Assembly: GCA_031260285.1 (NCBI GenBank)
Contig: JAIRKD010000068.1
Span: 41,774 to 105,773, forward strand
Origin: Gemmatimonadota bacterium
GTDB taxonomy: Bacteria > Gemmatimonadota > Gemmatimonadetes > Longimicrobiales > Longimicrobiaceae
Direction: 5' to 3'
Length of the DNA: 64,000 nucleotides
Positions 1-14,855 of the stretch are shown piece by piece. How positions within the stretch are numbered: the first letter of the stretch is position 1; every line of letters begins with the position of its first letter. The notes beneath the pieces were generated by a model. It was not told the DNA's origin and searched no databases. It saw only the letters and a list, made by a program, of their open reading frames with translations. Made by a program: the position numbers and the translations under genes.

Positions 1-305
1 CTCCGGAACCAGCCGAAAAGCACACCAAGGCATACCACCGTCAGCGCCAGAAAGATGTACCGCGAGGCAGCCCCGAGGTGGAGACCGAACGCGGCGCCGG
101 TGTTGTAGATGTACGTCAGCCGGAAGAAGTCACCGAGCACAGGAACCGGCTCGTACAACGGCAGGAACCGCTGCGCCGCGTACTTCGCGAGCTGGTCGAG
201 CACCACAATCCCCGCGGCCAGCCCGCCGTAGGTCGCCACCTTCCGGCTGTCCGTCATAAGAAGACCGGCATCACCGGGAACCGTTACTCCAGCTTCTTCC
301 GTCAT
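1..305 (-). CDS. lspA: Lipoprotein signal peptidase (signal peptidase II), 3' end outside window
   Basis: Inner-membrane aspartyl protease that cleaves prolipoproteins ahead of the lipidated cysteine. Only the first 101 residues lie in the window, and the ORF track missed it. Translating the complement from base 305 gives MTEEAG, a membrane segment followed by LDQLAKY (the family DxxxK box), the YNTGAAFG box, and a second hydrophobic stretch (IFLALTVVCLGVLFG). The catalytic aspartates would lie beyond base 1. Its ATG overlaps the ileS TGA (ATGA), the common ileS-lspA arrangement, so the two are probably co-transcribed. A second in-frame ATG at codon 17 is an alternative start. Likely clients in this window are the lipobox proteins encoded at 12.8, 20.2, 28.7 and 31.8 kb. 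Confidence 0.9.
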   Translation of the reverse strand, partial: MTEEAGVTVPGDAGLLMTDSRKVATYGGLAAGIVVLDQLAKYAAQRFLPLYEPVPVLGDFFRLTYIYNTGAAFGLHLGAASRYIFLALTVVCLGVLFGWFR

Positions 306-3300
306 TCCGTCCCCAGAGGTTCAATCTTCAGAACACCGATCACCACTTCCCCACCTTCAAGATCAACGGAGCGAACGGCTGAACGGACTGAGTCATCCAA
401 CGTTTCCGTAACGGTCATCTCCAGAGCGAGCGTTTCGCCCATGATGAACTCCCGATGACTTTCGAACGCCTCATGCATCTCCGCGGGCGCGGCAACCGCG
501 AGGCGGATCCGGTCGGACACCGCAAATCCGGTCTCCTTCCGGAGTCTCTGGATCCGGCTGACCAGCTCCCGGGCCAGACCTTCAGCCTTCAGCTCCGGCG
601 TCACCACGGGATCCAGAGCGACGGTATAGCCGCCCTGTGCCTCAACCAGGTACTCTCCGGTCGCCGTCTGAAGGATCTCGATCTCGCCTTCGATGATCCC
701 GTACCGCTCTCCGTCCACCTCAACTTCAAGCGGCTGTCCGCTCCGGAAAGCGCTGAGGGCGGCGGAACCCAGGCTGCGCGCGGCTTCAGCGATCCGGGGG
801 GTAAGCTTCCCGTAGCGGGCGCCAAGCGCTCTGAAGTTCGGCCGGGCACTGAAGGTGACCAGTTCATCCGCGCCCTCTATAAGCTCCACGGAACGCACGT
901 TCAGCTCGTCACGCAGAATTTCCAGAAGCGCCGGCTCCAGCGTAATTCCCGCGGGGACAACCGCAAGCAGACGCCCCAGCGGCTGCCGGACGCGGATCCC
1001 CGCCTGATCCCGGGCCGCTCGACCCAGCGACGACAGACGACGGACCGCCTCCATCCCCGCTTCCAGCTCCGGATCACGGATCACAGCGGGGTCCGCAAAG
1101 CCCGCCAGGTGAACACTTTCACCCGTAAGCGCCCGGTGCAGCCAGTCCGAGAGGAAAGGCGCAACCGGTGCCATCAGCCGCGTCACATCCACCAGCGCCT
1201 TGTGCAGCGTGGCAAACGCGGAGCGTGTATCCACCTGATCCGCACCACCCCAGAACCGGTCCCGCGAGCGGCGGACATACCAGTTCGAGAGGTCGTCCAC
1301 GATAAAATCCGCAACCTCACGAACCCCATGGGTCAGATTATACTCGTCAAACTGCGTTGCAACCCGCTCCGCGACCTCGGCCAGCCGGGAAAGCAGCCAG
1401 CGATCGATCAAAGGGCGATCCGCCACTTCCGGAACATCACCCGCACCCGGCTTCCACCCCTCCAGATTGGCGTAGAGAGAGAGGAAGTGGTACGTGCTCT
1501 TAAGCGTCTCGAAGACCTTCTTGTGAACCTCCCGCACACCCGACGGATCAAACCGTTTCGGAAGCCAGGGATGTGAGCTGGACAGGAGGTACCACCGGAT
1601 TGCATCCGCCCCGAACTCCTCGATCGCGTCCCAGGGGTTCACCACATTCCCGCGGGACTTTGACATCTTCTGGCCCTCAGCGTCGAGGATCAGATCGTTC
1701 ACAACCACATTCCGGTACGCCGGTCCACGCCCGAGCAGTGTGGAGATCGCCATCAGCGAGTAGAACCAGCCACGCGTCTGGTCCACACCTTCACAGATGA
1801 AGTCAGCCGGGAAGTACTTCTCGCCTTCCTCCACATTTTCGAACGGATAGTGCCACTGCGCAAAAGGCATGGCCCCCGAGTCGTACCAGACGTCGATCAC
1901 CTCAGGCGTACGGTGCATCCGCCCGTCGCAGCCCGGTTGATCGCACTTCCAGCTCAGCTCATCGATAAACGGCCGGTGCGGATCAAACGGCTCCGGAAGG
2001 CTGCCGGCCTTCTCCCTCAGCTCCGCAAACGAGCCGATGAAGTTGAGGTGCTCCGGATCGGTCGAGCAGACCCATGCGGGCAGGGGGGTTCCCCAGTAGC
2101 GGTTCCGGGAGATCGCCCAGTCGACGTTGTTCTCCAGCCACTCACCAAAGCGCCCGCTCCCCACCTCCGGCGGGTACCAGGTGACCCGGGCGTTGTTCGC
2201 CAGAAGATCATCCCGCACCGAGGTTGTCCGGATGAACCAGGAGTCCCGCGCCATATACAGAAGCGGACTCTGGCAGCGCCAGCAGTGTGGATAGGAGTGC
2301 TCGTCACGGCTGTAGCGGAAGACCAGCCCCCGCTCCTTCATCCGCTTCACCAGCTCGACATCCGCGTCCTTCACAAACCGGCCTCCGACGCCTTCGGGGA
2401 AGTCGGACGGGAAGTTTCCCCGGTCATCCACCGGGCGAAGGACGGGCAGGTCGAACTCGACGCCGAGGGTGTAGTCGTCCGCGCCATAAGCGGGAGCGGT
2501 ATGGACAACCCCGGTTCCGTCTTCCGCGGAGACATAGTTCGCGGGAAGGACGCGCCAGGCGTTATCCGCGCGGAGTCCGCCATCCACCCAGTCAAACGGC
2601 CGTTCATACCGGAGCCCCACCAGCTCAGCCCCGCGATGAACCGCAACGATCTCCGCCTCCGCCCCGAACAGCGCGGGTACCCGGGCTTTCGCCAGGATCA
2701 GCCGGCGCCCCTCATGCGCGACCTCGGCGTACTCCAGATCCGGGTCAATCGCCAGCGCAACGTTGGAAAGCAGCGTCCAGGGAGTGGTTGTCCATACCAG
2801 GAAATGCCGGTTGGCGTCACCCTCTTCGATCACCCGGGCAGTGAAGTACAGCGACGGATCAAGAACATCCTTGTAGCCGAGCGCCACCTCATGGCTGGAG
2901 AGCCCCGTTCCACACCGCGGGCAGTAGGGAAGGATCTTGTGGCCCCGGTAGAACAACCCCTTGTCCGCGATCTCCTTCAGACTCCACCAGATGGACTCGA
3001 TATACTCCGGCCGGTAGGTGACGTACGGCTTCGAATAATCAAGCCAGTAGCCGATCCGGGCGGAAAAGCGTTCCCATTCCTCAGTGTAGGTGAGAACACT
3101 TTCCCGGCAGACCTCGTTGAACCGGGCGATCCCGATCTTCTCGATCTCCGGTTTCCCTGAGATCTTCAGCCGGCGCTCCGCCTCGATCTCCACCGGCAGC
3201 CCATGCGTATCCCATCCCGCAATGCGAGGAACGTAACGCCCCTGCATCGTGCGATACCGTGCAACCGCGTCCTTGATCGTCCGCGAAATCACATGGTGGA

Positions 3301-3484
3301 TGCCCGGCCGGCCATTCGCCGTGGGAGGGCCCTCGTAGAAGACAAACGGCTCCCCGTCCTTCGTCTGCTCAAGGCTCCGCCGGAAGGTGTCCTCGGCGCT
3401 CCAGGCGGCGAGAGTCTCTTCCTCCAGCGCTCCGGTGGTCCGGGGGAGGTCGGGAAAAGCTGCCCTGTCAGTCAACGCTTCCAT
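302..3484 (-). CDS. ileS: Isoleucyl-tRNA synthetase, IleRS2 type with swapped HIGH motif
   Basis: Cytoplasmic enzyme that charges tRNA-Ile. At 1060 aa it has the size of the eukaryote-like IleRS2 class (IleRS1 is about 930 aa), and the opening FVFYEGPPTANG resembles Thermus-type enzymes. The class I signature, normally HxGH, reads G61-I-H-H64 here, so its first and third positions are exchanged. KMSKS is intact at about 606-610. The CP1 editing domain is present (TTTPWTLLSN near 232), and cysteine pairs CPRC (188-191), CWRC (401-404) and CDQPGC (514-519) look zinc-binding. A C-terminal anticodon-binding region follows. It overlaps lspA by 4 bp and starts 54 bp after the nucleoside phosphorylase-like gene. 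IleRS2 enzymes are naturally poorly inhibited by mupirocin; that this one is resistant is inference. Confidence 0.97.
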   Translation of the reverse strand: MEALTDRAAFPDLPRTTGALEEETLAAWSAEDTFRRSLEQTKDGEPFVFYEGPPTANGRPGIHHVISRTIKDAVARYRTMQGRYVPRIAGWDTHGLPVEIEAERRLKISGKPEIEKIGIARFNEVCRESVLTYTEEWERFSARIGYWLDYSKPYVTYRPEYIESIWWSLKEIADKGLFYRGHKILPYCPRCGTGLSSHEVALGYKDVLDPSLYFTARVIEEGDANRHFLVWTTTPWTLLSNVALAIDPDLEYAEVAHEGRRLILAKARVPALFGAEAEIVAVHRGAELVGLRYERPFDWVDGGLRADNAWRVLPANYVSAEDGTGVVHTAPAYGADDYTLGVEFDLPVLRPVDDRGNFPSDFPEGVGGRFVKDADVELVKRMKERGLVFRYSRDEHSYPHCWRCQSPLLYMARDSWFIRTTSVRDDLLANNARVTWYPPEVGSGRFGEWLENNVDWAISRNRYWGTPLPAWVCSTDPEHLNFIGSFAELREKAGSLPEPFDPHRPFIDELSWKCDQPGCDGRMHRTPEVIDVWYDSGAMPFAQWHYPFENVEEGEKYFPADFICEGVDQTRGWFYSLMAISTLLGRGPAYRNVVVNDLILDAEGQKMSKSRGNVVNPWDAIEEFGADAIRWYLLSSSHPWLPKRFDPSGVREVHKKVFETLKSTYHFLSLYANLEGWKPGAGDVPEVADRPLIDRWLLSRLAEVAERVATQFDEYNLTHGVREVADFIVDDLSNWYVRRSRDRFWGGADQVDTRSAFATLHKALVDVTRLMAPVAPFLSDWLHRALTGESVHLAGFADPAVIRDPELEAGMEAVRRLSSLGRAARDQAGIRVRQPLGRLLAVVPAGITLEPALLEILRDELNVRSVELIEGADELVTFSARPNFRALGARYGKLTPRIAEAARSLGSAALSAFRSGQPLEVEVDGERYGIIEGEIEILQTATGEYLVEAQGGYTVALDPVVTPELKAEGLARELVSRIQRLRKETGFAVSDRIRLAVAAPAEMHEAFESHREFIMGETLALEMTVTETLDDSVRSAVRSVDLEGGEVVIGVLKIEPLGTE

Positions 3485-3538: not shown

Positions 3539-4384
3539 TCAAAGTTGATGAACAACCGCTTCCAGAACTTCACCAAGCCGCTCGAACCCCGCCCGGCTGG
3601 CGTACTCAGCTTCGGAGGGAGATACGGACGGGCTCCCCACGATTACGGGTGCAGCGGTCACAACACCCAGACCGAGGACCCGCATTCCACAATGTCCGGC
3701 GACAATGGTATACGGAGCGAACCCCTCTGCCAGGAAATCCGCGCCCGCCATGCGCCACATCTGTCGCTCAGCCGGTGTCTCCGGGATTCCCCCGGCGGTG
3801 ACCGCCCGAACGCCCTCCCGGAGGGTGAACTCCGCGGTGCCGGCAACATCCATCGCGAGACGACGCAACCCCTCATCGTAGGCTATGGTCATATCCGGGA
3901 AACGGGGACCGAACCGTTCATCGTTCGGACCGATCAGCGGATTGGTCCCGAACAGGTTGATATGATCCCGAACCAGAACCACCTCACCCGCCAACCACTT
4001 CGGCTCCAGTCCACGGACCGCTGCCGCGATGATCATTGTTTCCGCACCCAGAACCCGCGCGAGCCGGACCAGGAACGTACCAAGCGATGATAAGCTGCCG
4101 GAGAACCCGGGGGCGCTGTTCACAATCATCACTCCCCGCCCGGCAATCTCACCCGATCGCAGACGGACAGGCAGCTCCCCATCAGACGGGATATCTCTCC
4201 CCCACCCTTCCGGCCCGCCAGGGAGAAGTTCATCGATCAGAACGACCTCACCCTGCCTGAACCCGCCCGGAAACACCGTTGTTGTGGGTCCACCGCTCTC
4301 CACGACAATCAGGAGCTCCACCGGATGAGGCCAACGGCTCCGAAGCAGTGCCGCGGCCGCCTCGATCTGCTCGTACGCCGTCAT
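3539..4384 (-). CDS. Purine nucleoside phosphorylase-like protein with degenerate active site
   Basis: 281 aa, homologous to trimeric PNP, which cleaves purine nucleosides with phosphate. The match is clear in the centre: DHINLFGTNPLIGPNDERFG and RFPDM. However, the residues I know from human PNP are mostly absent. GSGLG is replaced by ESGGP, the GRFHxYEGY phosphate/ribose loop by NSAPGFSGS (Arg84 and His86 lost), GMSTVPE by AEGFAPY (Ser220 lost), and the purine-binding Asn of ITNKV by Ala in VTAAPV. A Glu survives in IPETPAE. The protein may be a pseudoenzyme or may have a changed substrate. The ATG at 4384 was chosen because its start (MTAYEQIEAAAALL) fits the family. The TTG at 4417 in the ORF track would overlap yggS by 20 bp. 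It follows yggS by 13 bp. Confidence 0.8.
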   Translation of the reverse strand: MTAYEQIEAAAALLRSRWPHPVELLIVVESGGPTTTVFPGGFRQGEVVLIDELLPGGPEGWGRDIPSDGELPVRLRSGEIAGRGVMIVNSAPGFSGSLSSLGTFLVRLARVLGAETMIIAAAVRGLEPKWLAGEVVLVRDHINLFGTNPLIGPNDERFGPRFPDMTIAYDEGLRRLAMDVAGTAEFTLREGVRAVTAGGIPETPAERQMWRMAGADFLAEGFAPYTIVAGHCGMRVLGLGVVTAAPVIVGSPSVSPSEAEYASRAGFERLGEVLEAVVHQL

Positions 4385-4397
4385 GTCCGGAAAGAGC

Positions 4398-5096
4398 TCA
4401 CGGGTCGCGCTCACCAAGCAGCGCTGTGCCGATGCGGACGAGTGTACTCCCCTCCTCCACCGCCAGTTCGAAGTCTCCGCTCATGCCCATCGACAGATGC
4501 CGCGACTGGAACCCCGGAAGCGAACCCGCCTCCTCCGCAAGCCGGCGTACAGCGCGGAATACCTCACGCACAACACCCTCGTCCGCGGTAAAAGGCGCCA
4601 TCGTCATCAACCCCACTACACGCAGACCCGGCAGAAGGCAGATCCCGCCAAGAGAATCGAGAGTACCCGGACCTTCGAGACCTCCTTTGGTTTCCTCGCC
4701 GGAAACATTCACCTGGACAAGGACCTCAACCTGCCGGCCTGAATCAACAGCCTCTTCGCTGAGCTTCTGAGCGAGCCGGATCGAGTCCACCGAATGGATG
4801 AGATCCGCCAGCTCAATCGCCTGCCGGGCCTTGTTCCGCTGGAGATGGCCGATCAGATGCCAGCGCGCGCCTTCCACCCCCGCCGCGTCGACCTTGCTCT
4901 CCAGCTCCTGAACGCGGTTCTCGCCGATGTTGACGAGCCCGGCCGCAAGCGCCGCACGCACCGCTTCCACCGGATGCGTTTTGGTGACCGCAACGATCTC
5001 AACGCCACGGGGGTCTCTGCCAACCCGGTGGCAGGCCGCCTCGATCCGGTCCCGGATCCCCGCAAGCCGGGCCGGAAGCCCTGAATAATCCATCAT
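4398..5096 (-). CDS. yggS: YggS/PLPBP family pyridoxal-phosphate homeostasis protein
   Basis: About 232 aa, single alanine-racemase-like TIM barrel that binds pyridoxal 5'-phosphate and buffers its level; no enzymatic activity is established for the family. The PLP lysine lies in EIVAVTKTHP. Other family signatures are GENRVQE, WHLIGHLQRNK, the LVQVNVSGEETKGG segment and the terminal LSMGMSGDFELAVEEGSTLVRIGTALLG. The track's GTG start at 5120 adds eight residues (VPGGKLR); the tandem ATG-ATG at 5096/5093 fits family length better. In diderms this gene often sits in cell-division or proline biosynthesis operons; here its neighbours are the PNP-like gene downstream and, across a 235-bp gap, cdaA upstream. 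Confidence 0.95.
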   Translation of the reverse strand: MMDYSGLPARLAGIRDRIEAACHRVGRDPRGVEIVAVTKTHPVEAVRAALAAGLVNIGENRVQELESKVDAAGVEGARWHLIGHLQRNKARQAIELADLIHSVDSIRLAQKLSEEAVDSGRQVEVLVQVNVSGEETKGGLEGPGTLDSLGGICLLPGLRVVGLMTMAPFTADEGVVREVFRAVRRLAEEAGSLPGFQSRHLSMGMSGDFELAVEEGSTLVRIGTALLGERDP

Positions 5097-5331: not shown

Positions 5332-6138
5332 TTACCGCGCAACCGGCTTCTGATCCTTTCCGGTCATGGCGATGGCAGCCGCAAGCGATTCACGGTTCAA
5401 TCCGCGCCGGAGCCGGCCCCGCGAGGCGAGCGAGATCTGACTGGTTTCCTCGGAGACCACTACCACGAGAGCATCTGTCTCTTCAGAGAGGCCGATCGCG
5501 GCCCGATGGCGCGTCCCCAGCCCCTTGTCCTCAACCGGAAACCGGGTGAGCGGCAGGATCGCGCTGGCCGCAACAATTGTCTCCCCCCGCACAATCACCG
5601 CGCCATCATGCAGCGGCGAGTAGGGAGTGAAGATCGTGGCCAGAAGCGGAGCGGAAACACGGGCCTGGATCACGGTACCCGTCTCGGCGAACTCACCAAG
5701 CCCGACCTCCCGCTCAATCGCGATGAGCGCCCCCGTCCGGGTCCGGGCCAGATCCACCGCCGCCTGGGCGATCTCCTCCGCGACCCGCGACTCCTCAAAG
5801 CGGTTGAAGAACCGGCGCCAGATCCGGTTCTGGCCGAGCTGGGCAAGTGCGTTTCTCATCTCCGGCTGGAACACCACCAGCGCCGCGATCGCGCCGAACT
5901 GGAAGACGTACTCCAGAAGCCCGCGCAGCAGGTCAAAACCGAGGATCCGGGAGATGACGTAAACACCGAAGAGCAGCAGCAGCCCGAGCAGCATCTGCAT
6001 CGCGCGGGTGCCGGCGAGCAGGATGAGAATCCAGTAGAAGACAGCCGCGACAACCAGGATCTCCAGGAGATCCTTCCAGTCGGGGGCGAGGAATCCTAAC
6101 TGTTCGAGCACGTTATCCGGCAGAGATTCCGGCGCCAC
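5332..6138 (-). CDS. cdaA: Diadenylate cyclase CdaA (c-di-AMP synthase)
   Basis: 268 aa membrane enzyme that condenses two ATP into cyclic di-AMP, a messenger for potassium and osmotic or cell-wall homeostasis. Three hydrophobic segments fill roughly residues 25-90 (ILVVAAVFYWILILLAG, MLLGLLLLFGVYVISRIL, FGAIAALVVF). The DisA_N catalytic domain follows, with DGA at 178-180 (SPLHDGAVIV) and RHR at 210-212 (GTRHRAA). Family length is about 270 aa. It overlaps folP by 26 bp, so the two are probably translationally coupled; folP-cdaA adjacency recurs in diderm lineages. No CdaR-like regulator follows; the next gene down is yggS after about 235 bp. Confidence 0.95.
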   Translation of the reverse strand: MAPESLPDNVLEQLGFLAPDWKDLLEILVVAAVFYWILILLAGTRAMQMLLGLLLLFGVYVISRILGFDLLRGLLEYVFQFGAIAALVVFQPEMRNALAQLGQNRIWRRFFNRFEESRVAEEIAQAAVDLARTRTGALIAIEREVGLGEFAETGTVIQARVSAPLLATIFTPYSPLHDGAVIVRGETIVAASAILPLTRFPVEDKGLGTRHRAAIGLSEETDALVVVVSEETSQISLASRGRLRRGLNRESLAAAIAMTGKDQKPVAR

Positions 6139-14702: not shown

Positions 14703-14776
14703 TAGCGGAGGAGGGATTCGAACCCCCGACACGCGGATTATGATTCCGCTGCTCTAACCGACTGAGCTACTCCGCC
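14703..14776 (-). tRNA. tRNA-Met (CAT), elongator (tRNA-Ile2 not excluded)
   Basis: A 74-nt cloverleaf read from 14,776 down. Acceptor GGCGGAG/CTCCGCT has a G-U at 1-72, the D arm is GCTC-AGTCGGTTA-GAGC, the anticodon arm GCGGA-ATCATAA-TCCGC gives CAT, the T arm is GGGGG-TTCGAAT-CCCTC, and the discriminator is A. CCA is not encoded. It lies 5 bp after the initiator tRNA. Sequence alone cannot fully separate elongator Met from lysidine-modified Ile(CAU). Confidence 0.93.
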
Positions 14777-14781
14777 AAAAG

Positions 14782-14855
<74 letters not shown>

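Follow-up and report, generated by a model that had tools for sequence, protein, structure and literature searches.

The only isoleucyl-tRNA synthetase (IleRS) gene, ileS, detected in the genome of a Gemmatimonadota bacterium encodes a type 2 enzyme whose class I signature reads GIHH in place of HxGH. With a probability of about 0.9, we regard this protein as a sole housekeeping type 2 IleRS with a natural GxHH signature, predicted to be insensitive to mupirocin and inherited from an ancestor of the Gemmatimonadota. The swap as such has already been described; what is new is its near-universal presence in this phylum.

Within the window, the 64,000-nucleotide stretch of DNA analyzed here, ileS occupies positions 302-3484 of the minus strand as an intact reading frame of 1060 residues, with an ATG start and zero internal stops. 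The product scored 889.5 bits against the NCBIfam ileS model TIGR00392, passing its curated cut-off of 621.4. By Pfam, the protein comprises the class I core and an anticodon-binding domain (PF00133 and PF08264), followed by a C-terminal PF19302 domain (DUF5915) at residues 855-1051; no other C-terminal family was listed, the zinc finger of IleRS1 proteins included. The swapped signature lies at residues 61-64 (3293-3304, minus strand; codons GGC ATC CAC CAT), and a canonical KMSKS motif is found at residues 606-610 (1655-1669, minus strand), both as the first-pass annotation had read them. Between the two is the segment TEEWERF, residues 134-140 (3065-3085, minus strand), whose residue Trp137 aligns with Trp130 of P. 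megaterium IleRS2 (PmIleRS2), a conserved tryptophan near the HxGH motif that was mutated and tested in PMC10485003.

In a gapless alignment, the segment EGPPTANGrPGIHH pairs with EGPPTANGlPHVGH in PmIleRS2 and with EGPPTANGlPGVHH in the GVHH mutant of that enzyme (8c8w), so the register of the motif is unambiguous and GIHH is not misplaced. The same mutant is the best PDB match of the window enzyme, at 944 bits, with canonical-motif PmIleRS2 chains at 933-939 bits and PmIleRS1 at 372-380 bits; E-values for the PmIleRS2 structures reached down to 7e-283. We built a tree from 89 IleRS proteins; in it, the IleRS1 sequences, including that of E. coli, are set apart from the IleRS2 sequences by a branch 1.92 long with full (starred, 100%) support. 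The query falls among the latter, nested within Gemmatimonadota enzymes that all carry GxHH (nearest in the tree set, 62% identical). The tree-building software flagged a meeting of long branches, those of the type 1 and the HYGH sequences, which leaves the placement of the HYGH group unsure; the position of the query does not depend on it. The structure matches, the C-terminal DUF5915 domain and the tree all support the first-pass annotation in assigning the enzyme to IleRS2, the eukaryote-like type 2 form, and the alignment with IleRS1 and IleRS2 sets that it had called for groups the query with IleRS2, motif in register. A residue that co-varies with the swap was also sought at the position of PmIleRS2 His582, which precedes KMSKS. 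This position is Leu in the window enzyme; among GxHH enzymes it is Leu, His, Phe, Met, Val or Gln, with Leu and His also occurring among HxGH enzymes, and it was rejected as a clean partner of the motif.

To place the motif within its lineage, we surveyed relatives and the phylum. GxHH occurs in 75 of the 80 best GTDB relatives, which span many phyla, and HxGH in the other 5. We also scanned 298 Gemmatimonadota genomes, each at least 80% complete: the GxHH pattern turned up in 284 of them and the HxGH pattern in 5; for the 257 high-quality genomes in this sample, the GxHH count is 247. Two genera that seemed to lack GxHH under a pattern restricted to GPPxANG proved to have the variants GPPTSNA and GPPTANA, with GxHH present. 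Recurrence at the same place in so many relatives and phylum genomes means that GIHH is neither a chance occurrence nor a sequencing error. The motif is inherited across the phylum and is not special to the source organism, and its near-universality weakens any inference about recent exposure of this organism to mupirocin.

The 14 genomes without GxHH are of several kinds. Three have a type 2 enzyme with HYGH (G034, G096 and G140), two have type 1 enzymes (G178 with HLGH and G097 with HLGT), and G293 has a fragment resembling type 1. Four hold type 2 fragments that do not include the region with the motif (G011, G188, G290 and G297), and in the remaining four no ileS scored above the cut-off (G077, G114, G132 and G218), probably reflecting assembly gaps. 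In a few Gemmatimonadota, then, the GxHH gene is replaced or supplemented by HYGH or type 1 versions. The type 1 IleRS of G097 (locus L122), of the same class as the source organism, has HLGT for HIGH and AMHKS for KMSKS and is the only ileS-like gene above the cut-off in that genome. G006, of the same order, has two full type 2 ileS genes (L169 and L177), one GxHH and one HYGH, with the GxHH copy beside lspA. In G140 (L133), of the same class, the HYGH ileS lies between a purine nucleoside phosphorylase (PNP) gene and lspA in the orientation opposite to both, which suggests that it replaced a GxHH ileS in place. Outside the phylum, an HTGH enzyme from Candidatus Zixiibacteriota (L053) is nested among the GxHH enzymes of its group with branch support of 80-86, a possible reversion besides that reported for Deinococcus-Thermus.

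The first-pass annotation had stated that GxHH is tolerated in IleRS2 but not in IleRS1 and confers hyper-resistance, which matches the published work (PMC10485003, 2023). The tree in that study contained 163 IleRS2 sequences, 86 of them with G/AxHH, and this motif occurred in no IleRS1; GxHH versions of two IleRS1 enzymes were inactive, and swapped IleRS2 enzymes were active with the mupirocin Ki up about 170- to 800-fold. The natural ALHH IleRS2 of D. radiodurans has a Ki of 6.6 mM, which became 823-fold lower once the motif was changed to HVGH. Introducing GVHH raised the Ki of P. megaterium IleRS2 to 460 µM and that of T. thermophilus IleRS2 (TtIleRS2) to only 35 µM, so how strong the resistance is varies with the enzyme that carries the motif; the published values for swapped-motif enzymes thus run from 35 µM to 6.6 mM (PMC10485003). 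The main text of that paper does not name the Gemmatimonadota, and our literature searches found no papers on IleRS from this phylum, its inhibition or activity included.

The mechanism that we propose for the window enzyme is drawn from its homology to the enzymes of PMC10485003. Gly61 would fill the first motif position, and His63, at the third, would stand in for the absent first histidine at the transition state of isoleucine activation, with the shifted tip of helix α1 in IleRS2 making room for it beside the adenine. The same arrangement is predicted to spoil mupirocin binding by 2-3 orders of magnitude beyond ordinary IleRS2, so that the Ki would lie between high micromolar and millimolar values, and the window IleRS would by analogy have very low mupirocin sensitivity. 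The trait would have come from the Gemmatimonadota ancestor and not have been acquired by the source genome.

Why the motif exists is a separate question, on which a competing account leaves the identity of the enzyme untouched. GxHH could be a neutral or ancestral alternative, as good as HxGH in the IleRS2 fold, with mupirocin resistance a by-product for which the motif was never selected in this phylum; we give this account an even chance. It fits the near-universality of GxHH in Gemmatimonadota and its frequency, in our tree, in Ignavibacteriota, Balneolota, Cloacimonadota, Zixiibacteriota, Chloroflexota and some Bacillota. It also fits two published observations: the kcat/KM of the natural ALHH enzyme of D. 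radiodurans is similar to that of canonical IleRS2, and the ancestor of one IleRS2 clade was inferred to have had GxHH already (PMC10485003). However, engineering the swap into canonical IleRS2 impaired the kinetics by as much as 10-fold, so some backgrounds pay for the change, and the authors of that study favor antibiotic pressure (PMC10485003).

The copy number and surroundings of the gene point to a housekeeping function. A single match above the NCBIfam cut-off was found in the genome (2.76 Mb, 98.15% complete, 110 contigs), upholding the earlier expectation of an only ileS; no second ileS was found there, the weaker matches being partial, below the cut-off and within genes of related class I synthetases. 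A second copy hidden in a gap between the 110 contigs is possible but unlikely. The 5' part of lspA (signal peptidase II; PF01252) occupies positions 1-305 of the minus strand, its start overlapping the ileS stop by 4 bases, and the ileS-lspA housekeeping position noted in the first pass is thus correct. The lspA gene extends past the window edge (5531-6079 in locus L090), and rluD follows outside the window. Where the flanking sequence of a relative is long enough, lspA is in most cases encoded downstream of ileS in the same orientation, as a rule immediately next to it or at a distance of about 500 bases; a PNP gene lies upstream of ileS in many relatives, and the order PNP-ileS-lspA is kept across much of the phylum. 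The neighborhood is a conserved housekeeping context. Upstream of ileS, no T-box or other RNA element reached the Rfam gathering level.

The window has its own PNP homologue upstream of ileS, at 3539-4417 of the minus strand (PF01048, 78 bits). Most relatives keep the sequence MSTVPEVIVA at this locus; the window protein has LAEGFAPYTIVA there and is poorly conserved in its N-terminal part, and a relative of the same genus (L170) retains MSTVPE. Three better PNP_UDP_1 matches occur elsewhere in the genome, and the window homologue is probably degenerate or altered. Two adjacent tRNA genes are found at 14703-14855, also on the minus strand.

It is very improbable that the window IleRS is a resistance paralogue like plasmid-borne MupA, serving beside a sensitive housekeeping IleRS1. 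The protein does match the MupA and MupB models, at 845.5 and 830.4 bits, yet both scores are far under the curated cut-off of 1900, and membership was rejected; moreover, the genome has no second ileS, and the gene sits in the chromosomal ileS-lspA-rluD context. Less probable still is that the enzyme lacks activity or serves some other function for want of the catalytic first histidine, the loss of which cuts activation about 1000-fold in several class I synthetases (PMC10485003), given that it is the sole ileS product of its genome, with an intact frame and a normal KMSKS, and that IleRS2 enzymes with GxHH show activity in vitro (PMC10485003).

Our preferred reading, a sole housekeeping enzyme with an inherited GxHH signature, extends a known active-site swap to a phylum in which the swap is the rule. 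It is likely that nearly the whole phylum has run on a swapped-motif enzyme as its only IleRS since its ancestor. The phylum as a whole would then have an intrinsic, target-level insensitivity to mupirocin, and GxHH would count as a stable alternative to the canonical catalytic signature instead of an exception driven by the drug. The prevalence of GxHH in Gemmatimonadota bears on whether the motif arose through drug resistance or as an old alternative signature, and members with HYGH or type 1 replacements, together with the one genome that has both motifs, offer natural comparisons for cost and sensitivity.

Among known systems, the window IleRS most resembles the G/AxHH IleRS2 enzymes of S. 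griseus and D. radiodurans, the latter with ALHH (PMC10485003): all are type 2, with the first and third HxGH positions exchanged and KMSKS intact, and such an enzyme can be the sole housekeeping IleRS. Unlike them, the window enzyme has GIHH and belongs to a Gemmatimonadota lineage. With PmIleRS2 (8c8u, 8c8v, 8c8w and 8c9d) it shares homology over residues 21-1032, a motif in register and a tryptophan near the motif; wild-type PmIleRS2, however, has HVGH in a genome that also encodes an IleRS1, whereas the window enzyme has GIHH and stands alone. MupA and MupB, the acquired mupirocin-resistance enzymes, belong to the same IleRS2 family; in contrast to them, the window ileS falls far under the curated cut-offs and is a chromosomal, single-copy gene in a housekeeping place.
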